DNA of 38,851 nt, taken from NCBI RefSeq assembly GCF_003671765.1, contig NZ_QPIB01000032.1, positions 1-38,851 on the forward strand, given 5' to 3'. A model generated the notes under the pieces. That model was given only the letters and a program-made list of their open reading frames with translations. It searched no databases and had not been told where the DNA came from. The position numbers and the translations under genes were made by a program. Shown one piece after another: positions 6,978 to 32,632 of this stretch. This DNA comes from Xenophilus sp. E41 (GTDB lineage Bacteria > Pseudomonadota > Gammaproteobacteria > Burkholderiales > Burkholderiaceae_C). Position 1 is the first letter of the stretch; the number at the start of each line of letters is the position of its first letter.

Positions 6978-7421
6978 CACGATGACTTTGTGCACTTCGT
7001 GCTCGCTGCACGTCAGCGCCGACTTGATGGCGGGCAGTACCGTGCCAGAAACAAAGACCGCTCGCGCTCACAAGTGTTCGAGCATGTAGGCGTGTCGTCT
7101 GCCGTTAGGAGGGTGTTTAGAGCGAATAGGCCTGACGCCGGCGTGGACGGCGCCCAGGAGCACCGTTGGCCAGTCGACGGTGTCTTGCAGGACGATAAGG
7201 ACGCGCTCCTCGCATTTGATGCCAAGGTCCCGGATCGCGGCTGCGGTCTGACGTACCCGTCGGTCCAATTGGTTGTGCGTAAGGGTGGCCCGTCCGTCCA
7301 CGAATGCGAGCTTGTCGGACCGCCCTGCGTTGGCCGTCAGGAAGTGGTCGGCAATGTTGAACGGTTCGGCTGGCGACTCGACCGGGTTAGCGTACGGCGT
7401 CAAGTCAGCGGGTTGGGCCAT
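6978..7421 (-). pseudogene. Benzoate-CoA ligase remnant (N-terminal quarter, frameshifted and with a stop)
   Basis: The start (MAQPADLTPYANPVESPAEPF) and the following ~90 residues read as the N-terminus of a benzoate-CoA ligase, which normally has about 520-530 residues. After GAVHAGV the frame is lost: the expected ALNTLLTADD is encoded in another frame, and the original frame resumes at AYMLEH, so two compensating indels are present. A TGA at 7068-7070 then interrupts, probably CGA mutated to TGA, because the same frame continues as ARAVFVSGTVLPAIKS up to a TAG at 6975-6977. The remaining two thirds are absent. The gene starts 12 bases after boxD, as expected for a boxD-ligase operon. Active product is very unlikely. 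Confidence 0.85.
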
Positions 7422-7433
7422 GGCGTTTGTCTC

Positions 7434-8978
7434 CTAGAGCGAGAGGATCACCTCGGGCGAAGCCTGTACTGCCACGCGGCGGCTGTAGAAGTTCAGTGCA
7501 CGCAGTCCGCCGAGCTCCTCGCCGCCGCCGGCGCGGCCCGGCCCCCCATGCAGCGACTGCGGCATCACGTTGCCGTGCCCGCTGTGGACGCCGGCAGATG
7601 CTGGCGTGACCACGTGAATGCGCCCGTGACTCGGCGCAAGCGCAAGCGTCGATCGTGCAATGACCGCCGGATCATTTCCGTACAGGGATGCAACCAGAGA
7701 GCCCTTGCCGCGGCGCACCATCGCATGCGCGTGGTCGAGATCGCGGTAGGGAATGAGTGTGGCGACAGGGCCGAAGACCTCATGATCATGGACATTGGAG
7801 ACAGCGTCGGAATCCCGTATGCCCAGCAGTGTGGGCGCCACGCAGCATGCGACAGCCGGGTCGGCGTCCACTGGCGCCTTGCCGTCGCCGTCGTAAAGCG
7901 TCTCTGCGCTTTGCTGAAGCAGGGCGATCCCTTCCGTGACAGCTTGGAGTTGGGCGCGGCTGACCAAAGAGCCCATGCGAACGGCTTCGCTGCGTGGGTT
8001 GCCCACGACGGTCTTTGCCAGGCGCGCGGAGACTGCTTGCCCCACCTCGTCGAACAGCGGCGCCGGCACAAAAATGCGACGGATGGCGGTGCACTTCTGC
8101 CCCGACTTGGTGGTCATCTCTCGCGCTACTTCTTTGACAAGGGCCTCGAACGCGGGTGTCCCGACCTCGTTCCCTGGTAGCAGCACAGCGGAGTTGATGC
8201 TGTCAGCCTCGATGTTGGCGCGAACAGAGCGCGCGCTGACGGCGGGGTGTCGCCGGATCACGGCGGCGGTTTCGGCACTTCCCGTGAAGGACAGGACATC
8301 GAGTTCTTGCAGCGCATCTTGCAGGCCTGCACTGCTGCCGCAGACGATTGACAGCGCGCCGGCTGGCAGAAGCCCTGCGTCTACCACGTCGGCGACCATG
8401 CGGTGCGTCAGCCACGCTGTGGACGTGGCCGGCTTGGCGACCACGGGAACGCCGGCCAGCAGGGCAGGTGCTGCCTTCTCCCACAGTCCCCAGGCAGGAA
8501 AGTTGAAGGCATTGATGAAGAGTGCCAGGCCCTCGGTGGGCACCTGAATGTGCTGGCTCTGGAACAGCGCGTCCTTAGCCAGGCTAACAGGTTCGCCATC
8601 CTTCAAGTACCGCGTGGCGCCGAGAGTCTTGCCAAGCTTGCTGTAGGTTACGAGGGTGTAGATCGCACCGTCGATGTCAACAGCGGAGTCGTTCCTGACG
8701 GTCCCGCTGTTCGCCGTCGCTATCTCGAAATAGGCGTCTCGATTCGCTTGGAGCAGCTTGGCGATGCGATCCAGTAGTTCGGCGCGCTCGACGAAGGTCA
8801 TTGCGCGCAAAGCTGCACCCCCTTCTTGGCGAGAGAAGGCAAACGCTGCAGCGAGATCCAGTCCGGATGCGTCAACCCGCACGAGTTCGTCTCCCAGCAC
8901 GGGATCGAACAGCGGCGTGCCCGTGCCGGTACCGGCAATCCAGCGGCCACCAAGGAAGTTGGGGAGCAGTTGAGTCAT
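7434..8978 (-). CDS. boxD: 3,4-dehydroadipyl-CoA semialdehyde dehydrogenase
   Basis: 514 residues from the ATG at 8978, which overlaps the stop of the upstream DUF4863 gene (ATGA) and starts MTQLLPNFLGGRWIAGTGTG; a longer reading into the upstream gene is not needed. Aldehyde-dehydrogenase fold: NAFNFPAWGLWEKAAPALLA (substrate/NAD region), FTGSAETA, the conserved E of IEADSINSAVL, and the catalytic Cys in TTKSGQKCTAIRRIFVP. This is the variant found in box and paa clusters (BoxD, or the dehydrogenase half of PaaZ). It oxidises the semialdehyde made by BoxC to 3,4-dehydroadipyl-CoA, using NADP in characterised members. It appears intact although the ligase gene directly downstream is broken. 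Confidence 0.9.
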   Translation of the reverse strand: MTQLLPNFLGGRWIAGTGTGTPLFDPVLGDELVRVDASGLDLAAAFAFSRQEGGAALRAMTFVERAELLDRIAKLLQANRDAYFEIATANSGTVRNDSAVDIDGAIYTLVTYSKLGKTLGATRYLKDGEPVSLAKDALFQSQHIQVPTEGLALFINAFNFPAWGLWEKAAPALLAGVPVVAKPATSTAWLTHRMVADVVDAGLLPAGALSIVCGSSAGLQDALQELDVLSFTGSAETAAVIRRHPAVSARSVRANIEADSINSAVLLPGNEVGTPAFEALVKEVAREMTTKSGQKCTAIRRIFVPAPLFDEVGQAVSARLAKTVVGNPRSEAVRMGSLVSRAQLQAVTEGIALLQQSAETLYDGDGKAPVDADPAVACCVAPTLLGIRDSDAVSNVHDHEVFGPVATLIPYRDLDHAHAMVRRGKGSLVASLYGNDPAVIARSTLALAPSHGRIHVVTPASAGVHSGHGNVMPQSLHGGPGRAGGGEELGGLRALNFYSRRVAVQASPEVILSL

Positions 8979-9448
8979 GAGAATTGAACTTGCCCTTCGG
9001 GCAGGAGATAGGATACGAGCGCACGACCTTGCGAAACATTCGACAGGTGGGCACTGCCCGGGGGATAGACGAGCCACCCGGCCGGGTGCTGGTCGAAGCG
9101 TGCATCAAGGTCCGGAGGCTTGATCAGGTCGATCTCGCAATGCGGGTGCGTGTGGTCCGGTTCTGCGACGTCACGCATTTCAACGACGTCGACAGAGAAC
9201 CGCGCAAGGTCATCTGCTGGCTTGAAGATGCGGCCGTAGCAGATGTCACCTGCTTCCCGTGTGCGCAACCATCCAGCATCGACCCCCGCTTCGCACGCGG
9301 CCTTCAGATGTGTAAATGTGGGTGACTGCGGCCCGGGGGGCGTGTTGAGCCACGCCTGGAGCGAGGCGTCGAGCGGCCGGACGCGCAGTGCGCTGGCGAA
9401 GTCAACCAGCAGGGCACGGGATGTCTCGGGCGTAGATGTTGTTGTCAT
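8975..9448 (-). CDS. DUF4863 family protein of the box operon
   Basis: 157 residues, small cupin-like protein with HTHPHCEIDLIKP and GWLVYPPGSAHLSNVSQG, which could form a metal site. The family (DUF4863) contains 4-hydroxylaminobenzoate lyase PnbB and also members sitting between boxD and boxR in many Betaproteobacteria, whose role in benzoyl-CoA metabolism is not established. It is the first gene of the minus-strand box operon, with a divergent promoter region shared with boxR, and overlaps boxD by four bases. A chemistry claim beyond the family name is not justified by the sequence. Confidence 0.75.
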   Translation of the reverse strand: MTTTSTPETSRALLVDFASALRVRPLDASLQAWLNTPPGPQSPTFTHLKAACEAGVDAGWLRTREAGDICYGRIFKPADDLARFSVDVVEMRDVAEPDHTHPHCEIDLIKPPDLDARFDQHPAGWLVYPPGSAHLSNVSQGRALVSYLLPEGQVQFS

Positions 9449-9493
9449 CGCAGGTCTTCGCTGACTCCAATGGCGCCGCGACGCGCACTAAAT

Positions 9494-9547
9494 TGCATAC
9501 AAGCACTTTAGTGCTGTAGAGTGGCGCTGTCAAGCACTATACTGCAT
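9494..9547. promoter_or_regulatory. Candidate BoxR operators in the boxD/boxR divergent promoter
   Basis: Two copies of a 17-base motif, CAAGCACTTTAGTGCTG at 9500-9516 and CAAGCACTATACTGCAT at 9531-9547, resemble the two arms found in front of boxC. The first also forms a short palindrome AGCACT-TT-AGTGCT (9502-9515), and a further TGCA lies at 9494-9497. BzdR/BoxR-type regulators are known to recognise TGCA-containing repeats. Binding by this BoxR is inferred from the shared motif and position. Confidence 0.6.
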
Positions 9548-9564
9548 GAACGGATTGTCCCGGC

Positions 9565-10491
9565 TTGTCTTCGGCCTTGTCACGTGGCGTGGATTGGCCA
9601 TCTGGGCGTCGGGATGTCGACGCGCAGTCGCTGTCGCTGGGTCCGCGTGTGCGCATGCTGCGCGCGCGTGCAGCCATGACTCGCCGGCAACTGGCGGTTC
9701 GCGCTGGCGTGAGCGAACGTCATCTTGCGAGCCTCGAGAGTGGCGTGGGCAATCCTTCTGTGGTTGTGTTGCACAACGTTGCCCAAGCATTGGGCTGCTC
9801 GCTGGTGGAGCTCATTGGAGACTTCAGCACGGAGACTCCGGAATGGATGCTACTGCGTCAGGTCCTAGCTCGGCTGGACGAGCGGGCGCTGGGAAGGGTC
9901 AGGCAAGCGATCGAGCGGATGTTGCGGATCGGAAGCGACCAGGGGGAGGGGCCGCTCAGGCGAACCCGGATGGCCCTTGTCGGCCTTCGCGGAGCAGGTA
10001 AGTCCACGGTCGGAAGGTTGTTGGCGAAGGCGCTGGAGCTGCTTCGTGTGGAGCTGTCGGCCGAGATCGAGAAGGTCAGCGACTGCGGCGTGGTCGAGAT
10101 CCAGTCGTTGTAAGGCCGGAACGCCTATCGTCGCTACGAACGTAGGGCGCTAGAAGACGTCTTGCGCATGCACCAACATATGGTGCTCGTGACGCCGGGC
10201 GGCATCGTCAATGACCCGTCGACCTTTGGTGCACTCCTGTCCCATTGCACGTCGGTCTGGCTGCAGGCCAGTGCGAGGGAGCACCTGCGCCGTGCTCAAG
10301 CCCAGGGTGACCTGCGGCCCATGCGGGCCAATCCTGAAGCTTTGCAGGACCTCGAGTGCATCTTGGCCAGTCGCGCACCCTTCTACGGCAAGGCAGACCT
10401 GTGCATCGACACAAATGGGCTTACACCAGGAAGAGTGCTTCATAAGCTGCTGGGGCAGCTGGGTGACACCTCACTTCGGGCGAATGTGTAA
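9565..10491 (+). pseudogene. boxR: Benzoyl-CoA-responsive regulator (XRE plus shikimate-kinase-like), interrupted by an in-frame stop
   Basis: The frame from a TTG at 9565 (or GTG at 9589) encodes an XRE DNA-binding domain (MTRRQLAVRAGVSERHLASL), then a linker and a shikimate-kinase-like domain with P-loop GLRGAGKST. A TAA at 10111-10113 stops it after 182 residues. The same frame continues without a shift as GRNAYRRYERRALEDVL and VTPGGIVNDPSTF through to the TAA at 10491, giving the ~300-residue length of BoxR. In relatives the stop position holds Tyr (LYG), so TAT/TAC to TAA is the likely change. The C-terminal domain binds benzoyl-CoA in this family. The truncated product would keep the DNA-binding part only. 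Sequencing error or readthrough cannot be excluded. Confidence 0.85.
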
Positions 10492-10492
10492 C

Positions 10493-10540
10493 ATGCATCA
10501 TTGTGCTTGTACTATGTTGAAGACAAGCATTATGATGCAT
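10493..10540. promoter_or_regulatory. Large imperfect palindrome in the boxC promoter, candidate BoxR operator
   Basis: An 18-base left arm (10493-10510) and an 18-base right arm (10523-10540) match at 16 positions across a 12-base spacer. Each arm begins or ends with ATGCAT and contains a CAAGCA core; read outward each arm is CAAGCAYWATGATGCAT, the motif also seen twice before boxD and boxR. The palindrome begins 2 bases after the boxR stop and ends 37 bases before the boxC start, so it should overlap the boxC promoter. Confidence 0.7.
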
Positions 10541-10577
10541 CTCATCCAAAGCACCTCATCACCAAACAGGAGCCACC

Positions 10578-12236
10578 ATGAGCGAGACACTGCGCGTTGA
10601 CTATCAAACTAGCCCTTCCCAATACAAGCATTGGAAACTCAGCTTCGAAGGACCCGTGGCAACGTTGGCTGCTGACTTCGATGAAAACGGTGGCCTGCGT
10701 CGTGGCTACAAGCTAAAGCTGAATAGTTACGACCTCGGCGTCGACATCGAACTTAACGATGCCATTAATCGGGTTCGTTTCGAGCACCCCGAAGTGCGCA
10801 CCGTAGTCTTGACCAGTGCGAAGGAAAAGGTGTTCTGCTCTGGTGCCAACATCTTCATGTTGGGCGTGTCTAGCCACGCCTGGAAGGTGAACTTCTGCAA
10901 GTTCACGAACGAAACCCGAAACGGCCTGGAAGACTCCTCGGCGAACTCGGGGCTCAAATTCCTCGCCGCGGTCAACGGCGCTTGCGCTGGAGGTGGCTAC
11001 GAACTCGCGCTTGCCTGCGACGAGATTTACCTTGTGGACGACCGCTCCTCCGCAGTGTCGCTGCCTGAGGTGCCTCTGCTTGGCGTCCTGCCTGGTACGG
11101 GCGGTCTAACGCGGGTCACCGACAAGCGTCACGTGCGCCACGACCTTGCGGATATCTTCTGCACCACAAGTGAGGGCGTGCGCGGCCAGCGGGCCAAGGA
11201 TTGGCGCTTGGTCGACGAAGTCGTCAAGCCGGCGAATTTCGCGGCCAAGATCCAGGAGCGAGCGCTGGAACTCGCCGCCGCGAGCGATCGTCCGGCGGAC
11301 GGCAAGGGCGTGGCATTGACGCGGTTGAGTCGCACGATCGAACCTGATGCACTGCGCTATGGCTTGGTGGACGTGGAGATCAACCGCAACAAGCGCACGG
11401 CAACCCTTATCGTCAAGGCACCCGCCGGCGCCCAGCCTTCGACGATTGCCGAGATCGAAGCGGCAGGTGCGGCTTGGTATCCACTGACGCTTGCGCGCGA
11501 GTTGGAAGACGCCATCCTGTCGATGCGCACGAACGAATTGGACATCGGCACCTGGCTCATCAAGACCAAGGGCGACGCCTCGTCCGTTCTTGCGACGGAT
11601 GAGGTGCTGGCAAAGCACAAGGACCATTGGCTGGTGCGCGAGACGATTGGTCTTCTGCGCCGCACGTTCAGCCGCCTGGACGTCAGCAGCCGCAGCCTCA
11701 TCGCGCTCATCGACGCCGGCTCGTGCTTTTCTGGTTCCTTCCTTGAATTGGCCCTGGCTTGCGACCGCATCTACATGCTTTCGCTCCCAGACGATCAGGC
11801 CAACGCTCCCGTGATCACAGTCGGCAAGCTCAACTTCGGCACTTACCCGATGGCGACTGACCAGAGCCGCCTGGGCCGTCGCTTCTATGACGAAGCGCCA
11901 GCGCTTGATGCCGTCCGGGCCGTACTAGGCAAGCCCCTGAACGCGCAGGCCGCATTGGACCTTGGCTTGGTCACCAGCAGCCCCGACGATATCGATTGGG
12001 CGGACGAGACCCGCATCGCGATCGAGGAACGCGTGGCGATGAGTCCCGACGCATTGACGGGCATGGAAGCCAACCTGCGATTCAATGGGGTCGAAAACAT
12101 GGCCAGTCGGGTCTTTGGGCGCCTCACCGCCTGGCAGAACTGGATCTTCCAGCGTCCCAACGCCGTCGGTGAGAGGGGCGCATTGAAGGTCTACGGCAAA
12201 GGCGATAAGGCCGCGTTCGACTGGAACCGCGTCTAG
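10578..12236 (+). CDS. boxC: Benzoyl-CoA-dihydrodiol lyase (2,3-epoxybenzoyl-CoA dihydrolase)
   Basis: 552 residues, the usual length. ATG 10578 has AGGAG eight bases upstream. The enzyme is a duplicated crotonase fold: the N-terminal half shows the oxyanion-hole signatures VFCSGANIFML and NGACAGGGYELALACD, the C-terminal half a second, degenerate repeat (IALIDAGSCFSGSFLELALACD). BoxC opens the ring of 2,3-epoxybenzoyl-CoA with two waters, giving 3,4-dehydroadipyl-CoA semialdehyde plus formate. First gene of the plus-strand operon and directly preceded by the palindrome described at 10493-10540. Its third codon positions are mixed, unlike boxB. Confidence 0.95.
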   Translation: MSETLRVDYQTSPSQYKHWKLSFEGPVATLAADFDENGGLRRGYKLKLNSYDLGVDIELNDAINRVRFEHPEVRTVVLTSAKEKVFCSGANIFMLGVSSHAWKVNFCKFTNETRNGLEDSSANSGLKFLAAVNGACAGGGYELALACDEIYLVDDRSSAVSLPEVPLLGVLPGTGGLTRVTDKRHVRHDLADIFCTTSEGVRGQRAKDWRLVDEVVKPANFAAKIQERALELAAASDRPADGKGVALTRLSRTIEPDALRYGLVDVEINRNKRTATLIVKAPAGAQPSTIAEIEAAGAAWYPLTLARELEDAILSMRTNELDIGTWLIKTKGDASSVLATDEVLAKHKDHWLVRETIGLLRRTFSRLDVSSRSLIALIDAGSCFSGSFLELALACDRIYMLSLPDDQANAPVITVGKLNFGTYPMATDQSRLGRRFYDEAPALDAVRAVLGKPLNAQAALDLGLVTSSPDDIDWADETRIAIEERVAMSPDALTGMEANLRFNGVENMASRVFGRLTAWQNWIFQRPNAVGERGALKVYGKGDKAAFDWNRV

Positions 12237-12339
12237 GTCGTCACGGCTTTCGCAGATCGCCGCGATTCGCCCGACGAATGACCGCGGAGGCCTGCCTTGG
12301 AGTTTCCGTGTCATTCGTCATCAAGCCAAGGAGCCAAGG

Positions 12340-19669: not shown

Positions 19670-20563
19670 ATGCCTGGATTGGTGCTGGAATTGCAGCGGG
19701 ATGCGCTGGACGCCAACGTCAAAGTAGCCGACCTACTGAGGAAGGCACTTGTCGTTTCAAGGAAACTGGAGCTGGCCGAGATGCAGGACTGGATTGAATC
19801 CGAGCTCGGTAGCTACGAGAACACGGATGATTGCCCGCTGTATCGGCAAATGTATGGCGAACTGAAGGTCTGGAACCCGTACCACGGATTTCAGCCGGTA
19901 TTGGTTCCGGATCAGGAGCTTGCCGACATCATCTGCTCAGGGGCCAACACCCAGTCAATTGGTGAGCTTGAAGACCTGCTGCGGGGAGACGCAAAGACCT
20001 TCCACATGCAGATGAGCGGCCCACAGAAGGCGATGCTTGCAAAACTGATCGGCGTGAACCTGGAACCTTCGCTTCATATACCCCGCCAATCGATGGTGAA
20101 GATCTTGGACAGCGTGCGGAATCGAATCCTCCAATGGTCTCTTGACCTTGAGAAGCGAAACATTTTGGGAAGCGGGCTGACATTCAGCAAGGAGGAGAAG
20201 GCAATGGCCAGTCAGATCAACTACCACACCGTCAACAACATTGGGTCGATGACGAACTCCCAGCTCCAACAGCACTCATCTGGAGTTCAAGTGATTGAAG
20301 GAGCCTTGGGCACGGACCTGACCAAGCTGGTCGAGAGCATTGCGTCGAGCCTAAGCGGCCTCTCGCTATCACAACCTGACACCCAAGAGCTATTGGCGGA
20401 GCTAGCAACGCTTCGGTCTCAGCTCGACTCGCCAAAGCCGAAGGTCGGCATCATCAAGGAATCGCTCGCGAGCGTTCGGACCGTTCTGGAGGGCGCAGCG
20501 GGGAATCTAGTCGCGTCGGACTTGCTCGCCAGATTGGGACCGCTTCTGGGCGCGATCACTTAA
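19670..20563 (+). CDS. AbiTii-domain protein
   Basis: 297 residues, ATG 19670 with AAGGAG five bases upstream. The N-terminal ~170 residues match the AbiTii domain: VLELQRDALDANVKVADLLR, the RKLELAEMQDWIESELG segment, then ELKVWNPYHGFQPVLV. The linker contains NYHTVNNIGSMTNSQLQQHS, a Gln/Asn/Ser repeat-like strand region seen in several bacterial defence proteins, and the last ~90 residues are helical. AbiTii-domain proteins are associated with abortive-infection type phage defence; the biochemical activity is not known. It is convergent with the proteasome-like gene and separated from it by a hairpin. Confidence 0.75.
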   Translation: MPGLVLELQRDALDANVKVADLLRKALVVSRKLELAEMQDWIESELGSYENTDDCPLYRQMYGELKVWNPYHGFQPVLVPDQELADIICSGANTQSIGELEDLLRGDAKTFHMQMSGPQKAMLAKLIGVNLEPSLHIPRQSMVKILDSVRNRILQWSLDLEKRNILGSGLTFSKEEKAMASQINYHTVNNIGSMTNSQLQQHSSGVQVIEGALGTDLTKLVESIASSLSGLSLSQPDTQELLAELATLRSQLDSPKPKVGIIKESLASVRTVLEGAAGNLVASDLLARLGPLLGAIT

Positions 20564-20615
20564 CGACTGGATGCTGCAAGCTCACCGGCTCGGAGGCTCT
20601 GGGAAACCCTGAGTA

Positions 20616-20642
20616 GGGAACAGGTGCAAAGCACCCGTTCCC
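20616..20642. terminator. 12-bp hairpin between convergent genes
   Basis: GGGAACAGGTGC (20616-20627) pairs with GCACCCGTTCCC (20631-20642) around AAA with a single mismatch. It sits between the AbiTii gene (plus) and the Ntn-hydrolase gene (minus), where a bidirectional terminator is expected. No T-run follows. Confidence 0.55.
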
Positions 20643-20691
20643 GACAGCACCTCGCCCCCCGCAAGTGTGGGGTCCAGGGAGTTGCTCATTC

Positions 20692-21516
20692 TCACAGCCT
20701 GCGCAGGGCATCAGGCTGTGCTTGTGCGGTAGGAAGCTTCTGCATCGTAGTGCTATCGCACCGTTCGAAGTTGGCGTTCCTCCACTGGACTGTATCAAAA
20801 TTCCTAAGATTATCCACATGCGCGCCGAGAAACGTTCGCCTTCCCTCGTAGATTACGCCAAACGTTGTGGACACTGAATTTGGTTTTCGGATGACTCCCA
20901 CGAGTTGCGGCGCACCACCTACTGTTGGATTCGAGGTATTCGCGAGCGCGTCGCAGAAGCAATGGAAGACCGCTCTGCTCGTTTCCTTAGTTGGTCCACT
21001 CTCGTACCGTGCAAAATTCTCCTGAAACTCCGCTGCGCCACTTCCGAGAGCGAAGAGAACGCCCGATGCAGACGGCATTTTTTGCTCTTCGCCATACCAA
21101 CCACGCGTCTTGTCCCAGCTTATAGTATGGCTGAAGAATGTCTTGTTGTTCAGTGGATCTCGCGAGCCGTGGACCACGCTCAGCGCATTCTCAGCAAGAC
21201 CAGCATGCAACGCCGGATACTCTCTAAAGAGGTCATTGAGCTTGTTGACTATCGCCTGAAACTTCTGCTTGGGCGAGGAGTTGCCCGAGAACAATAGACC
21301 CGCGTCGGCAAGCTCGACAATCTGGCCTAGCGCGAGAGAAGGGAAAAGGACGTCCCCGCAATAGCCGAGTACGTCAGGCCACCTCTTGAACGCAAAAACT
21401 TTGCGCCCGTAATTGAAGTATGCGGAATCATTCCAAGAGACTCGGCTGTCCGCGGCCATATACAGCGAAGACGGCCCCTTAGTGTCAATGCCAGCCCAGC
21501 AAACCAACAGCGTCAT
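20692..21516 (-). CDS. Proteasome-like Ntn-hydrolase
   Basis: 274 residues; ATG 21516 preceded by GGAGAG. The sequence begins Met-Thr, so removal of Met would expose an N-terminal Thr. Proteasome-type pattern follows: AADSR with Asp23, then RKVFAF with Lys39, 16 residues apart as Asp17 and Lys33 are in 20S beta subunits, then GYCGDVLFPSLALGQIVEL (the G-x-x-GD turn and helix H1) and FALGSGAAEFQENFARY (the GSG...A segment). T2 to D23 is five residues longer than in the proteasome. This supports a self-standing Thr-protease-fold protein distinct from HslV and Anbu in length and loops. A protease role is inferred; the location next to an AbiTii gene suggests defence. Confidence 0.65.
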   Translation of the reverse strand: MTLLVCWAGIDTKGPSSLYMAADSRVSWNDSAYFNYGRKVFAFKRWPDVLGYCGDVLFPSLALGQIVELADAGLLFSGNSSPKQKFQAIVNKLNDLFREYPALHAGLAENALSVVHGSRDPLNNKTFFSHTISWDKTRGWYGEEQKMPSASGVLFALGSGAAEFQENFARYESGPTKETSRAVFHCFCDALANTSNPTVGGAPQLVGVIRKPNSVSTTFGVIYEGRRTFLGAHVDNLRNFDTVQWRNANFERCDSTTMQKLPTAQAQPDALRRL

Positions 21517-21628
21517 CAGGAGCTCTCCTCCAATGTGTTTATTGAAACGCAGAGTGCGGAGACTAACGGAGACGCACGGTCAGGGCCAGGGCGCTGTAGA
21601 GTACTTGGCAAACGAAGGAGGGCCCGAC

Positions 21629-22072
21629 ATGCAAATGATCGACATGGCTGAAGGGCAGGGCGACACGGCAGCGCCAAGGCCGCCCGACTGGCCCGCGGAA
21701 AGGGTGCTGCGCGACCTGGCGCTCGCTGTCGCATTGGCGAGCGCATCTGCCTGCTGGGCTCTGGAGAGATCCACGGGACTTACCGACACCGCACTTCAGT
21801 ACGAGGCGGACTACCGGGTGGTGGCCGCTTGGTGCGGCACGCCGGCCTTCGAGAAGAAGTTCTTCACGCAATCACAGCAGTTTGTGGCCTCCAGTAATGG
21901 CCAGGACAAGTTTGCCACCGAACGCCAGGAGAGCACCATCCGTTCGTTGCGGCGCAACCCGATCGCGCTCATCGGTTCGCAGTCGGACTGCAAGGTGCAG
22001 GGCGACGAACTCAAGCGGGTGATGGACGAGCGCAGCAGGAGCCGCAGCGGGCAGCGCGGGCGCGGCCGTTAG
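21629..22072 (+). CDS. Hypothetical protein with one hydrophobic segment
   Basis: 147 residues from the ATG at 21629, preferred because GAAGGAGG stands just before it; in-frame longer readings lack a ribosome site and run antisense to the Ntn-hydrolase gene. Residues ~27-45 (VLRDLALAVALASASACWAL) are a probable membrane anchor or uncleaved signal, leaving a ~100-residue C-terminal part with two Cys, ending in an Arg/Ser-rich tail. I do not recognise the family. It is divergent from the Ntn-hydrolase gene across 112 bases. Confidence 0.55.
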   Translation: MQMIDMAEGQGDTAAPRPPDWPAERVLRDLALAVALASASACWALERSTGLTDTALQYEADYRVVAAWCGTPAFEKKFFTQSQQFVASSNGQDKFATERQESTIRSLRRNPIALIGSQSDCKVQGDELKRVMDERSRSRSGQRGRGR

Positions 22073-25709: not shown

Positions 25710-28682
25710 TTAGCGTTCAAGCCGAACCCTAAGCCGGCGGGCACGTTCCCGGAACGCAACATCTCCACCTTCAAGTATGTCGCACACTTGCTTTCGAATG
25801 CCAGCGTCTTCGAGGCCTCCGGTAACATAGCTAAATTGCGGGAGTGCCCCTCCGGATGAGTGGGTGGCGTTCGCCACAATGATCTGGTCGGCATCAGTAT
25901 TGATTACCAGGTTTGCGTTGTGGGTGACGATGATCACTTGCCGCTTGCTTCTGGCCTGCAGAAAGAGGGGCACCAGTTCATCGTTGACAGATTTAGGATC
26001 GAGATTCTCCTCTGGCTGGTCGATGATGAGCGGACGGTCGTCTGCTTCGTCGAGAGCCAGATAGAGCAGAAGCAAGACGATTCCACGCGTTCCTGGCGAT
26101 AGCTTTCTAATGTCGGCTCCGTCGTACCGAATCTCATAGCGGACGGAGATGTGCTCTGTCCCAAAAAGCCACTGTGCGAATCGAAGACTCCATTGTCGAA
26201 ACTCGGCACGATCAGACGACGCGGGAGGCGCGTGCGCTAGAAGAGGTTTGGAATACTTCGCGATGAATGCCGCCATCGCTGCCTGCACCTCCAAGGCCGT
26301 GCCAAATTCCCACGCGTGCTTCAGTTCAGCGATTGCCAACTTTGCCAGCGTACCGCGGCCCATAAAAGGACCAGACTTACGGCAATCGATGAGATGTTCT
26401 TCTGCTGCAGTAGCCCACCGGTCGACGTCAGCCGTACGGGAAACTTGAATACTAAGTTTCCTCAATGTGCCGCTTGTACCAGACAGCCGCGCCATGAGGG
26501 GGCGGTACAGCTCTTCAAGGGCCTTTTGCTCGCTGATGACGGCAGCGAAAAGTCGACCGTATGTAGCTTCCCGCTCGGTCTGCAGCGCCTTGCGTCGCTC
26601 TATCGCAGTCTGAGCATCAGCGTGCTTAGTTCGGAGGGCCTGAAGTGCTCCGTTCTCTGTGGCGATGCGCCTGGACAGCGCACTGTATTGTTTGCGTACA
26701 ATCGTGTCGGCGCTGATGAGCTTTTCTAAGCGGTTCATTTCCGCCTTCAAAACGGAGAGCGAGACCTTCGACAGATCAACATCAGGTTCGATCAGTGGCG
26801 CATCGGGCTGAGATGCTGGTACCTCAGCGCCGACCAGTGCTGCAATCTCCTTATCCGCCCAATTGATGTACCCAGACAGCGCCAGATCCACATTTCCTTT
26901 GTAGATCAACAGAAATTCATCCCATTGCGTGTCGTTAAGCCCACTACCGGCGTGTCGTGCTCTGGCTTGCCGCAGCATTTCGGGTGCTTTTGAGGACCGA
27001 GTGTTTTGCACCTCGTCTTGTAGGGCTACAAACGTCCGTCGTTGAGAAGAGAACGCGGCAATGCGGCTGTTCAAAGCTTGAATTGACGTGTTCAGTTGTT
27101 CATGTCGAACCGCCTGTGCCTCCGTTCCTTTTACTACCAGCTTCGTCAGGTCATTCGTGTAACCCTTCACCAGGGATTCTTTGGCGGCAACCTGAGATTT
27201 AAGGGTGTCAACCAGCGCTTGCTTCTCAATCTCTACCGCAATGCGTTCCGAGATCGCATCGATCGTTTCGGTTTCGCGAACGCGTGCTTGCTGGTACCGC
27301 TGAGTCCTATGGTCACGGAGTTGAGAGAAGTCGAGCGCACCGTCTGTGTCTTCTGTTGCGTGTGCTTCGAAAATCACACGCTCAATCTCGCCGACAAGAC
27401 CTTCCGAGGCACCCCTCGACGAACACAGCTCCTCAACGAATTGTTGCGACAGATAGCGAGCCCGTGGATAGGACCAGCTTTCATCGAGGTCTCGCCCGTC
27501 AAGGTAGCTCTTGGTTGCGTTCCCACCGCCCCATCGCAGGTAAACATTGCTTTGACCAATAACTGGCCGCGCCCTCACAAGAAAAGAAGCACTAATGTTC
27601 TGGTCTTCACTCCACGCAGTTTGAGGAATGGCCTGACACCCTGCTGCGATCATGTCGGCGAGGGCAGTCTTGCCTGAGCCTCTCGACCCAATGATGGCGA
27701 CCAGACCCGGATTCAGCGGCATCGATTTTGTGATGGCCCAGTCGGCATCTTGAATGTCGATGCTAGAAATCACTTGCGACGGCATCGCCGTTTTTGGGGG
27801 CTCAGCACCGACGAAGGCTCTGTTGGCTGGGTCGATGCAGGCTTGGCGCAGCGCTTCAAATGTCAGCGCCCCTTTGATCCAAGAGAACCTGTCCTTGGCG
27901 GGTTGAGCCGTCGAGGCGAGGTTGTGAGCATCGCTGCCATGCATGCAGGGTTTGCAGCCGCCGTAGCGATCGTTGAGACGCTGTGCGTCGAGGTCCTTCA
28001 TGCCCAACCAAAATTCCCGCTGAGCTGCACTGCTTGTAAAGATGAAGTGCGCGAACTTCTCGATCTCTTGGCGTATTGTCTGGTCTGCTGCCTGCCGCAA
28101 GCCGGAGGTCCCATCGCCCGACCCGCCGGCTACACCGATCAGAACGTTCGCCTTCGCCCATGCACTTCGCGAGTAGGTGTCACGAAGCGCCAAGAAGTTG
28201 ACTTTGAACTGGGTGGCCCCGTGGGCGAGGGCGGCCCGGTCGTCCTTGATCGTCGGGTCGGCCGCCTTGCCCAACCGAATGAGCTCCTCAGGGCTGCAGT
28301 CAAATTGATCACCGTGCGCAGCGAAACTGAGGCGTGAAAGAAAACGGCGAATTTCAGATACGTGGTTAGGGTCGTCTGGGCTTACCAGTAGGTGCAGATT
28401 CACGAAGCCGGATTTGGCCGCTACATCTAGCCGTACCTCAATGTTTGGGATTACCAATGACACATTTGGCAGACTGCCCGTCTGCTGCCGGCGGCAGACC
28501 TCTTCGTAGAGCTGAGTAGTGTAGTAGTCGGTAATCGCTACGGCACCGATCGGCGGTGAAGCGTTGTTCAGCGCCTGTAAGTAAGCACCCCAATCTTCCG
28601 CCCTGAATTGGTTATTGAGGATGGTGCCCGGCGCATGAATGTGCGGCTCCCAGCGATTCCATTCTGAACCACGCGTGATCAT
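25710..28682 (-). CDS. PHP-domain SMC-like ATPase (TrlF-type)
   Basis: 990 residues. N-terminal PHP phosphoesterase: WEPHIHAPGT (H14, H16), AITDYYT, and CMHGSDAHN (H248, D251, H253). Walker A GSRGSGKT at 332-339. A long coiled-coil middle part (~450-780), rich in Glu/Gln/Lys/Arg. C-terminal ABC half: signature KLSPGTRGIVLLLLYLAL, Walker B LIIDQPEENLD with D888, and the H-loop IIVTHNANL. This is the layout of TrlF-family AAA-like ATPases, SMC/RecN-like proteins with a built-in metal phosphoesterase, found in defence and repair contexts. DNA-dependent ATPase coupled to nucleic-acid or nucleotide hydrolysis is inferred. No obvious partner subunit adjoins it. Confidence 0.85.
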   Translation of the reverse strand: MITRGSEWNRWEPHIHAPGTILNNQFRAEDWGAYLQALNNASPPIGAVAITDYYTTQLYEEVCRRQQTGSLPNVSLVIPNIEVRLDVAAKSGFVNLHLLVSPDDPNHVSEIRRFLSRLSFAAHGDQFDCSPEELIRLGKAADPTIKDDRAALAHGATQFKVNFLALRDTYSRSAWAKANVLIGVAGGSGDGTSGLRQAADQTIRQEIEKFAHFIFTSSAAQREFWLGMKDLDAQRLNDRYGGCKPCMHGSDAHNLASTAQPAKDRFSWIKGALTFEALRQACIDPANRAFVGAEPPKTAMPSQVISSIDIQDADWAITKSMPLNPGLVAIIGSRGSGKTALADMIAAGCQAIPQTAWSEDQNISASFLVRARPVIGQSNVYLRWGGGNATKSYLDGRDLDESWSYPRARYLSQQFVEELCSSRGASEGLVGEIERVIFEAHATEDTDGALDFSQLRDHRTQRYQQARVRETETIDAISERIAVEIEKQALVDTLKSQVAAKESLVKGYTNDLTKLVVKGTEAQAVRHEQLNTSIQALNSRIAAFSSQRRTFVALQDEVQNTRSSKAPEMLRQARARHAGSGLNDTQWDEFLLIYKGNVDLALSGYINWADKEIAALVGAEVPASQPDAPLIEPDVDLSKVSLSVLKAEMNRLEKLISADTIVRKQYSALSRRIATENGALQALRTKHADAQTAIERRKALQTEREATYGRLFAAVISEQKALEELYRPLMARLSGTSGTLRKLSIQVSRTADVDRWATAAEEHLIDCRKSGPFMGRGTLAKLAIAELKHAWEFGTALEVQAAMAAFIAKYSKPLLAHAPPASSDRAEFRQWSLRFAQWLFGTEHISVRYEIRYDGADIRKLSPGTRGIVLLLLYLALDEADDRPLIIDQPEENLDPKSVNDELVPLFLQARSKRQVIIVTHNANLVINTDADQIIVANATHSSGGALPQFSYVTGGLEDAGIRKQVCDILEGGDVAFRERARRLRVRLER

Positions 28683-30803: not shown

Positions 30804-31520
30804 TTAGTTCCAGACCTTCACCAATTCAGCAATCTTGGTTGCGACGACCGACATGGCGTCTTCCTTGGTGTCTAAACCGGTCCTAGACGCCAGTAACGGG
30901 CTTACCGCGCGCAACGCGACGTAGTCGGTGCCGTGGACGATGGGGACTAACCGATTTCCGGCGAGCAACGCCGAGAGTTCCTTGTCCGCGACGCCCTGAT
31001 TCGGCAAGCCCGAGATGAAGCTCGGAGTCACCAGAACTAGCCCAATGCGCGAGTTCGCCAAGCCCTTGTCGATTGCGCGCATCATCGGCACGCCGAGTCC
31101 GAGGTCCGCTTCGCTGAACCAAACCTTCACCCCCGCCGTCGTGAGCGCGTCGTAAAGCTCCTTTGCGGCGCCTTGCCGGTCGGGCCACGCGTGACAGAGG
31201 AAGCAGTCCCGCAGGTCAGGCTGTTCCACGACGGTTTTCTCGACCGCTTCGCGAACCGGCGTGAGGGAAGCGATTTGGCTGGGCGTGTACGACACAGTCG
31301 AGCCAGGGCGCGACCACCTCGCTCTAGACCCGCCGCCCCCGCTCAAACGACTAGCGCCGTAGCTGCTGCTGCCGCCCCCGCTGTACCCGCTGCCCGACGA
31401 GTACGAAGAGCCGTACCCGTAGCTACTGCTGCGATAGCTGCTGCGGTATCGACAGGCGGGGCAGGCCGCTGCCGCTGCAGAAGAGCTGTGCCCACGTACG
31501 GGTGCTGTGCACTGCGCCAT
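30804..31520 (-). CDS. TIR-domain protein with Ser/Tyr/Gly-rich N-terminus
   Basis: 238 residues, ATG 31520 behind GTGAGG. Residues 1-25 contain CPAC (C20, C23) after an Ala run. Residues ~26-66 are low-complexity Ser/Tyr/Gly. Residues ~104-235 form a TIR domain: DCFLCHAWPDRQGAAKELYD, then VKVWFSEADLGLGVPMMRAI, ANSRIGLVLVTPSFISG, KELSALL. In TIR NADases the catalytic Glu lies before the (L)xxG of this loop; here that position is Asp139, with Glu137 two residues earlier, as in the subfamily with WFSEKDV-type loops. NAD hydrolysis is therefore possible but not certain. It stands alone, without a STING, Sir2 or Thoeris-type partner next to it. Confidence 0.85.
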   Translation of the reverse strand: MAQCTAPVRGHSSSAAAAACPACRYRSSYRSSSYGYGSSYSSGSGYSGGGSSSYGASRLSGGGGSRARWSRPGSTVSYTPSQIASLTPVREAVEKTVVEQPDLRDCFLCHAWPDRQGAAKELYDALTTAGVKVWFSEADLGLGVPMMRAIDKGLANSRIGLVLVTPSFISGLPNQGVADKELSALLAGNRLVPIVHGTDYVALRAVSPLLASRTGLDTKEDAMSVVATKIAELVKVWN

Positions 31521-31798: not shown

Positions 31799-32491
31799 CT
31801 AGCCTACGGAGCGGACCAATCCGGTCTGGCGTAGCCGGATTGCCATTGTCGTAACGGACACCTGAAACAGGTCGTGAAGCGGCTGGAAGTGGCGGCCGCG
31901 AAAACGAGGTGCACGAGCTACCACGCGCGAAAAGGCGGGGGAGTCGTAGGCCGAGTTCATGAGCGACGTGAAGTTTGCGCCAAGAAGCTCGAATGCAACG
32001 TCATCGGTGAGCTTGAGGCTCTCAACTCCGAAGGCCGCGTTGAAGGCCCTGCGCAGTTGCTTCGCCGGTACGAGAAAACATCCCGCGAAGTGGTTGGCCT
32101 GGCGCTCTTTGGGATCGGCTGGCTCATATGGCTCGGTCATCCCGTCCATGGCGATTTCACGGTGGTGGTGAATTCCGGGGTGCATCACTACATGCCCGAC
32201 TTCGTGTGCGAGGGTGAAGCGTTTTGATCTTGGACTCAGCTGTTCCGAGACTGCGATGACGCCGCCGATGCGGTTGATGAAGCCGCCAAGTTCCCGGCCA
32301 GCTCGCATGGTCGGGCTGCTCAGTTGCCCCTCTTTGACCGTGAAATCCAAATAGTGAGCAGCTACCCACGGGTCACAAACGTCGAGTGGCGTGACGAGTT
32401 CACCCGGCCACAACGAGCATTGGCGGTCCCAGAGCTCAAGTTGCAGATCGCGGGCGCATTTTTCTGGATCGATGGTGGGGGCGACGATCAT
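31799..32491 (-). CDS. ImmA/IrrE-family metallopeptidase
   Basis: 230 residues from ATG 32491, preferred to the longer reading from 32623 because GAGG precedes it and the convincing sequence begins there (MIVAPTIDPEKCARDLQLEL). Zinc site HEVGH at 96-100 in RFTLAHEVGHVVMH, followed by KERQANHFAGCFLVP with the third ligand. The family cleaves or binds XRE-type repressors, as ImmA does in ICEBs1 and IrrE in Deinococcus. Here no XRE gene adjoins it, so the target regulator is elsewhere. A 16-bp perfect palindrome lies 61 bases upstream. Confidence 0.85.
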   Translation of the reverse strand: MIVAPTIDPEKCARDLQLELWDRQCSLWPGELVTPLDVCDPWVAAHYLDFTVKEGQLSSPTMRAGRELGGFINRIGGVIAVSEQLSPRSKRFTLAHEVGHVVMHPGIHHHREIAMDGMTEPYEPADPKERQANHFAGCFLVPAKQLRRAFNAAFGVESLKLTDDVAFELLGANFTSLMNSAYDSPAFSRVVARAPRFRGRHFQPLHDLFQVSVTTMAIRLRQTGLVRSVG

Positions 32492-32531
32492 TTGCGCACT
32501 GTACCTCACGGCGAGCAAGAACGCTAGATAT

Positions 32532-32568
32532 GGGGTTCTAGGGGGAACCCGGACACTACATGTAGTGT
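32532..32568. promoter_or_regulatory. Perfect palindrome ACACTACATGTAGTGT and adjacent GGGTTC-N6-GAACCC
   Basis: The 16-bp palindrome is at 32553-32568; a second inverted repeat GGGTTC/GAACCC lies just before it, about 32533-32550. Together they occupy the gap between the helicase stop (32633) and the ImmA-type start (32491). This is a likely operator for the peptidase gene. Confidence 0.6.
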
Positions 32569-32632
32569 TTTTTCGAGGCGTTGAGCAGTTATGCCTGACC
32601 ATGAGGTGGATTCCATACGTCATTGGAGCGAA

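Follow-up and report, generated by a model that had tools for sequence, protein, structure and literature searches.

Type III toxin-antitoxin systems, which include ToxIN, CptIN and TenpIN, are built from tandem RNA repeats located upstream of a gene for a ToxN-type RNase, with a terminator between the two. The locus presented here resembles these systems and AvcID in being a small mobile pair of one protein and an adjacent structured RNA. It differs from the type III systems in that the RNA is present as a single copy, with no tandem repeat, and lies mostly downstream of the gene or divergent from it, and in that the protein has no match to a toxin family in Pfam, NCBIfam or PADLOC. A structured RNA neighbouring a defence protein is also a feature of retrons and of defence-associated reverse transcriptases with ncRNA; however, the present module has no reverse transcriptase and encodes a putative amidohydrolase. 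On the protein side, 22 new proteasome homologues have been reported, some of them widespread (PMI-4), and the proteasome active site is composed of Thr1/Ser1, Asp17, Lys33 and Gly47 (Fuchs, Alva and Lupas 2021, PMC8665760). That paper places connectase, a protein ligase, in the proteasome-like family and gives no genomic context pointing to the function of the homologues, and a term search found the word "RNA" absent from its main text. The family studied here could be one of the 22 homologues, for example PMI-4. In the openly licensed literature, no account was found of a proteasome-like protein that has its own structured RNA; the subscription literature was mostly outside the scope of this search.

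The window, that is, the whole stretch of 38,851 nucleotides that was analysed, contains the following features relevant to this comparison.

19670-20563, plus strand: AbiTii gene (PF18864, 132 bits; PADLOC)
20606..20685, minus strand: structured RNA, from the GCAACU leader to the GGGU end, starting 6 nt past the stop codon of the Ntn gene
20607..20612, minus strand: 3' strand of P1, UCAGGG (alignment, pairing test, lone fold)
20616..20642, minus strand: long hairpin P4, GGGAAC...GUUCCC (alignment, pairing test, lone fold)
20647..20655, minus strand: short hairpin Ph, GC-GAGGU-GC (hand alignment, pairing test)
20657..20672, minus strand: hairpin P3, CCCC / GGGG with loop (hand alignment, pairing test)
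20674..20679, minus strand: 5' strand of P1, CCCUGG (hand alignment; helix 1 of the pairing test)
20680..20685, minus strand: 5' leader GCAACU; weakly supported pairing of its CU with an AG of the Ph loop is possible
20692..21516, minus strand: gene for a proteasome-like Ntn protein of 274 aa, with ATG at 21516, candidate nucleophile T2, and D23, K39 and G54
21525..21531, minus strand: likely ribosome-binding site GGAGGAG of the Ntn gene (read from sequence)
25710-28682, minus strand: TrlF-family AAA-like ATPase (NCBIfam NF045780, 684 bits)
30804-31520, minus strand: TIR_2-domain protein (52.5 bits)
31799-32623, minus strand: IrrE-like Peptidase_M78 protein (58.4 bits)

The open reading frame at 20692-21516 on the minus strand is a real gene. 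As the sequence-only reading had proposed, it opens with Met-Thr and its D23 and K39 are spaced by 16 residues; of the two motifs named there, GSG is found at residues 158-160, whereas GxGD is not, the actual letters being G51-Y-C-G-D. Protein searches recovered 690 relatives at E<=1e-3, and 805 with a 46-row profile. Position 2 is occupied by T in 81 of 85 aligned sequences, among them the window protein, and by S in the other 4; position 23 is D in 84 and E in one. K39, G54 and G158 are invariant (85/85), and the same applies to Trp28 and Gln204. T/S2, D23, K39 and G54 reproduce the proteasome active-site pattern, the first two being set five residues further apart. With the proteasome-like Ntn proteins, that is, the 20S beta subunits, HslV, BPH and the 22 homologues, the family shares a candidate nucleophile at position 2 behind Met, an Asp and a Lys spaced like Asp17/Lys33 and a Gly at the place of Gly47, and no dedicated unfoldase is seen adjoining the gene. 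The family differs from the known proteasome-like proteins in having a dedicated RNA next to the gene and no significant PF00227 match. From the residue pattern, removal of Met1 and catalysis by Thr2/Ser2 would be expected.

Comparison with structural and family databases points, though weakly, in the same direction. No match for the 274-aa protein was found in Pfam, NCBIfam or PADLOC, proteasome families were absent among the matches of 46 family members at E<=1, a PDB search with the single window sequence returned nothing relevant, and the family has no significant match to PF00227 or to any PDB chain. The top three PDB matches of a profile were nevertheless proteasome beta chains, in register (E 0.11-0.14), and a larger family profile matched proteasome beta at E 0.28-0.38. 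Aligned with hhalign to a BPH profile of few sequences, the family gave P=0.0036, in register, while the values were 0.25 against HslV and 0.059 against HslV and BPH pooled, with reversed controls at 0.24-0.25 and the HslV-BPH positive control at 3.7e-6. Proteasome-like Ntn ancestry of the 274-aa protein is likely, and the idea of a stand-alone protein of this kind gains support to that degree from the residue pattern and the weak in-register beta profile matches. The genome's own HslV (PF00227) sits elsewhere, adjoining an AAA_2 ATPase that is read as HslU; the genome also has a second PF00227 protein, read as BPH, and the protein studied here is therefore an additional one. The suggestion that it is not HslV, made for want of an HslU partner, agrees with this, as HslU is absent among the window ORFs adjoining the gene.

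The recurring partner of the Ntn gene, found at its side in many phyla, is an RNA, which had gone unnoticed in the sequence-only reading. It starts with a leader GCRAYU, with variants, followed by the helix P1, which closes round the three hairpins P3, Ph and P4. The P3 loop opens with ACCA in 20/44 copies, and the Ph loop occurs as GAGGU, GAG, UAGU and other variants. The RNA was aligned by hand in 42 of the 49 loci of the first scan, L027, L031, L034, L039, L040, L042 and L049 being left out of the manual alignment; addition of L027 through the model R2 (see below) raised the total to 43/49. L199 and L202 were added later, and L202 was then dropped from the alignment A5, so that 43 of 44 rows passed, 40 of them distinct. 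In these rows, the paired cells amounted to 98.1% of 808, compared with 66.9% in shuffled alignments, a percentage that is inflated because the alignment was made by eye towards the structure; slid-structure controls gave 42.9-57.0%. Both sides had changed in 18 of the 25 pairs (43-row alignment), and the covariation score was 0.653 against 0.158 shuffled. The helices are kept by compensatory changes. P1 provides the cleanest test, since the leader and the terminal GU fix the positions of its two strands. Counted from the pairing table on the RNA strand, 62 G-U cells stand against 15 non-standard cells, which points to an RNA and to this strand. Pairing of 2-3 bp between leader and loop is weakly supported. 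Folded alone, the window RNA has a z of -3.19, with P1 and P4 present and P3/Ph paired differently. No match to the element was found in Rfam 15, whether in the window at 20400-21700 (E<=5), in 8 further loci (E<=1), in L199 (E<=0.5) or at the gathering cut-off in 6 sources. An HDV-like ribozyme, or a long pseudoknot between the leader and GAGGUGC, was dropped as a candidate, as the same bases form a hairpin in the divergent clade. Downstream of the gene in L034 (4109-4220), a variant element with three hairpins, a strong closing stem and then a T run was seen by eye, and it may be a third RNA type.

The side and orientation of the RNA vary, and it can therefore not be explained as a mere portion of the mRNA. 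Among 42 copies, 25 lie downstream in sense, one upstream in sense (L025) and 16 upstream and divergent. Nearly all downstream copies (22/25) begin 4-6 nt past the stop codon, and the 16 divergent copies lie on the other strand, 37-163 nt upstream of the start codon. The later loci L202, L214 and L216 also have the RNA upstream and divergent. In the plasmid locus L199, which forms a long branch, it is upstream in sense, and the nearest kin in the tree are divergent. The layout follows the protein tree: in 46 rows, 8 changes are needed compared with 19.8 for shuffled labels, in a tree with poor support on 19 of 43 inner branches. For the divergent RNAs, the promoter-like sites that precede them scored above 95% of single-base shuffles in 4/16 only. 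A readthrough or frameshift signal is at odds with the divergent copies and with the in-frame stops that follow closely in some loci, and was rejected.

Model searches placed the RNA next to the same gene. Model R1, built from 17 downstream copies, matches the window at 20600-20686 on the minus strand with 88.6 bits, the near-identical L002 being part of its training set. It also found copies beside the gene in loci outside the training set, divergent ones included, several of them only at E 0.1-3. Over 369 genomes of the class, R1 returned the window's own copy only, a count that is a lower bound because R1 misses RNAs such as that of L202. Model R2 was built from 18 upstream copies. Applied to 35 loci outside its set, it gave 18 matches at E<=5, 17 of them beside the gene, and all 13 matches with E<0.1 adjoin the gene; these include L216 (1.4e-12), L013 (2e-7), L027 (0.0088), L214 (0.021), L037, L036, L022 and L024. 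Over 398 genomes of the phylum, R2 gave two matches (G781 and G493), each of which adjoins the protein gene; G781 (L216) is the single independent case, since the G493 sequence is that of L043, which belongs to the R2 set. R2 missed the window's own RNA among these genomes, as well as hand-aligned copies such as L014, L019, L020 and L025, and absence of the RNA elsewhere is therefore no proof. The whole-genome model searches found the RNA only beside the protein gene. No copy was found in L031, L034, L039, L040, L042 and L049, L039 and L049 being gene remnants, nor was one seen to accompany the distant relatives L217, L218 and L219. The blastn searches with the element gave nothing in E. coli and nothing real in plasmids (three records with 26-27 base pieces), and in viral contigs the leader was upstream in 0 among the 120 matches listed for the pattern GCGAGGTGCTGTCGG.

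The protein gene is sparsely distributed. In one scan of species genomes it was located at 48 loci (L002-L049), whose phyla include Pseudomonadota, Bacteroidota, Bacillota, Planctomycetota and Cyanobacteriota; together with the viral contig L050 they form the first-scan set of 49, in which L002 represents either the record of the window's own species or a very close one. Of the other loci, L213 is a repeat of L050, and the sequence of L215 is that of L043. When distant relatives and the window's own genome are counted, the gene occurs in 3/369 genomes of the class and 6/398 of the phylum. In the annotated collections, a relative occurs in five plasmid records, and none was found in the phage records; the plasmid matches H4 and H5 were set aside in the further analysis. 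The protein gene is broken in six copies (L007, L039, L045, L046, L048 and L049). An integron integrase is present in L006 (490 bits), and L009 contains a fragment of one (209 bits, below the cut-off of 265). The sparse spread, the integrase in L006 and the defence-model matches nearby fit a mobile, optional module. In L007, L045, L046 and L048, the structured RNA is still complete beside the broken gene.

Some relatives are accompanied by an RNA of another kind. L040, L198 and L200, which do not have the four-helix RNA, carry instead a tRNA-like RNA, which is encoded on the other strand and whose end is 0-9 nt away from the stop codon of the gene, and L026 has both, the tRNA-like RNA lying just past the four-helix one. 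In a descriptor scan of 54 loci, tRNA-like RNAs within 700 nt of the gene were found in these four loci only, with three elsewhere; their acceptor stems are only 3-5 bp long. Ordinary tRNAs were found by ARAGORN 0.5-0.9 kb upstream in L036 and L037. The D-loop AGUA and the T-loop UGCRARU are common to L026, L040 and L198, and the T-loop of L200 differs. Phage-encoded tRNAs have the same two loops: the signature was found in 49 viral-contig stretches (IMG/VR L220-L268), in 42 of which ARAGORN calls a tRNA, and it is therefore a phage-tRNA trait and not unique to the Ntn family. The tRNA-like RNAs differ from phage-encoded tRNAs by their short acceptor stem and odd anticodon loops, and, in L040, L198 and L200, by lying flush with the Ntn gene. 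In the plasmid relatives L200 (2677-3969) and L198 (2408-3967), another gene ends about 30 nt upstream; it matches HEPN_Toprim_N in L200 and has no Pfam match in L198, and it is a possible operon partner in this branch.

The neighbouring proteins make a defence setting of the Ntn gene plausible. Between about 19 and 38 kb, the window, with its TrlF-family ATPase, TIR protein and IrrE-like peptidase, has the look of a mobile or defence island, and PbeA, AriA and PDC-S06 models matched beside relatives, among the matches listed for the 83 chosen proteins of a neighbour set (A8). This set comprises 72 proteins from a 103-protein list (out of 218 candidates) and 11 added by choice, and its count of 7 Phage_integrase proteins is biased, as five of the 11 hand-added proteins are recombinases. 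A clustering of the ORFs that surround the gene in the window and in 48 loci, considered for clusters spanning at least three loci, brought out no recurring protein partner other than recombinases and generic families; the five clusters present in at least three loci, the family itself aside, were by eye of tyrosine recombinase, helix-turn-helix, ABC, short-chain dehydrogenase and sensor-kinase types. In a single case, L018 of Hymenobacter (7210-12331), the gene and its RNA lie between the RNA-repair genes pnkp (PNKP_ligase, 588 bits) and hen1 (Hen1_L, 347 bits). The sequence-only reading had regarded the protein as a possible protease arm of an antiphage pair with AbiTii and had called for a count of co-occurrence, the absence of which was to speak against the pair. 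The AbiTii gene is indeed the convergent neighbour in the window, identified by both PF18864 and PADLOC, but the pairing fails elsewhere: an AbiTii-like protein was found in 0/54 other loci at E<=1, some of these loci being short contigs. Such a pair is hardly tenable, and the AbiTii gene of the window probably lies there by chance, in a region of defence type.

Our preferred explanation, held with moderate confidence, is that of a hydrolase under the control of the RNA, the two belonging to a mobile module of defence or toxin-antitoxin-like type, for which we infer that the RNA binds the protein and controls the enzyme. The gene and the RNA of the window would form a mobile two-part module, composed of the Ntn protein and its own small structured RNA. 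The methionine aminopeptidase of the cell would strip Met1 and bare Thr2/Ser2 as the nucleophile, and Asp23 and Lys39 would complete the active site. Binding of the RNA to the protein would then hold the activity in check or set its timing. If the RNA were lost, cleaved or stripped, as a result of phage attack or loss of the element, the hydrolase would be released and growth would stop, so that the RNA would serve as an antitoxin or sensor. The replacement of this RNA by a tRNA-like one in three relatives suggests, speculatively, that the signal has to do with tRNA or with a factor acting on tRNA. A more tentative version sees a ribonucleoprotein enzyme whose cloverleaf-type RNA, with four helices in most members and similar to a phage tRNA in some, is a bait or co-substrate for tRNA-acting factors, with the activity switched on for defence when the RNA is cut or displaced; this we regard as possible, if rather on the unlikely side.

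Several other explanations have to be weighed against the RNA-controlled hydrolase. The RNA could instead feed the enzyme, as a co-substrate or guide (an aminoacyl donor or docking RNA) of an Ntn enzyme of ligase or transferase type. The tRNA-like RNAs in place of the four-helix RNA in L040, L198 and L200 agree with this, and so does the membership of connectase in the proteasome-like family (PMC8665760); however, the acceptor stems of the tRNA-like RNAs are very short, and the common RNA has no 3' CCA end. This reading is a serious rival, although we would not expect it to prevail. A dedicated RNA-protein pair with a role outside defence, in protein quality control or regulation, would suit the lack of a known phenotype and of telling genomic context for the homologues in PMC8665760, but the sparse mobile distribution and the six broken gene copies suggest an optional module, and we consider it unlikely.

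Two further possibilities concern the nature of the element itself. The close spacing of the downstream copies behind the stop codon is what would be seen if the RNA regulated or stabilised the protein's mRNA in cis, as 3' UTR hairpins, a ribozyme or a terminator-like structure would. In 16 of 42 loci, however, it is located upstream on the opposite strand and therefore cannot be in the protein's transcript; moreover, it is upstream in sense in L025 and L199, and divergent also in L202, L214 and L216, which leaves a cis-element quite unlikely. Still less probable, indeed very unlikely, is a DNA structure that serves mobility, either attC-like or made of hairpins recognised by a recombinase. 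The integron integrase of L006 and the fragment in L009 would be in line with it, as would an attC-like site that lies upstream of the L003 gene and has perfect boxes. The excess of G-U over non-standard cells, on the contrary, fits RNA pairing, and the whole-genome model searches found no element away from the protein gene. The identity of the element as an integron attC was rejected, as strict R''/R' boxes occur in L003 only (1/54 loci, close to the shuffled 0.65), where the site is separate from the element.

The adjoining RNA is a kind of context that a neighbourhood analysis limited to proteins cannot see. If the pair is functional, a new type of enzyme would join the toxins or immune systems that are under RNA control, and for at least one orphan family of proteasome-like proteins the role would become directly testable. 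The enzyme and its RNA may protect the bacteria, or the mobile DNA that carries the module.
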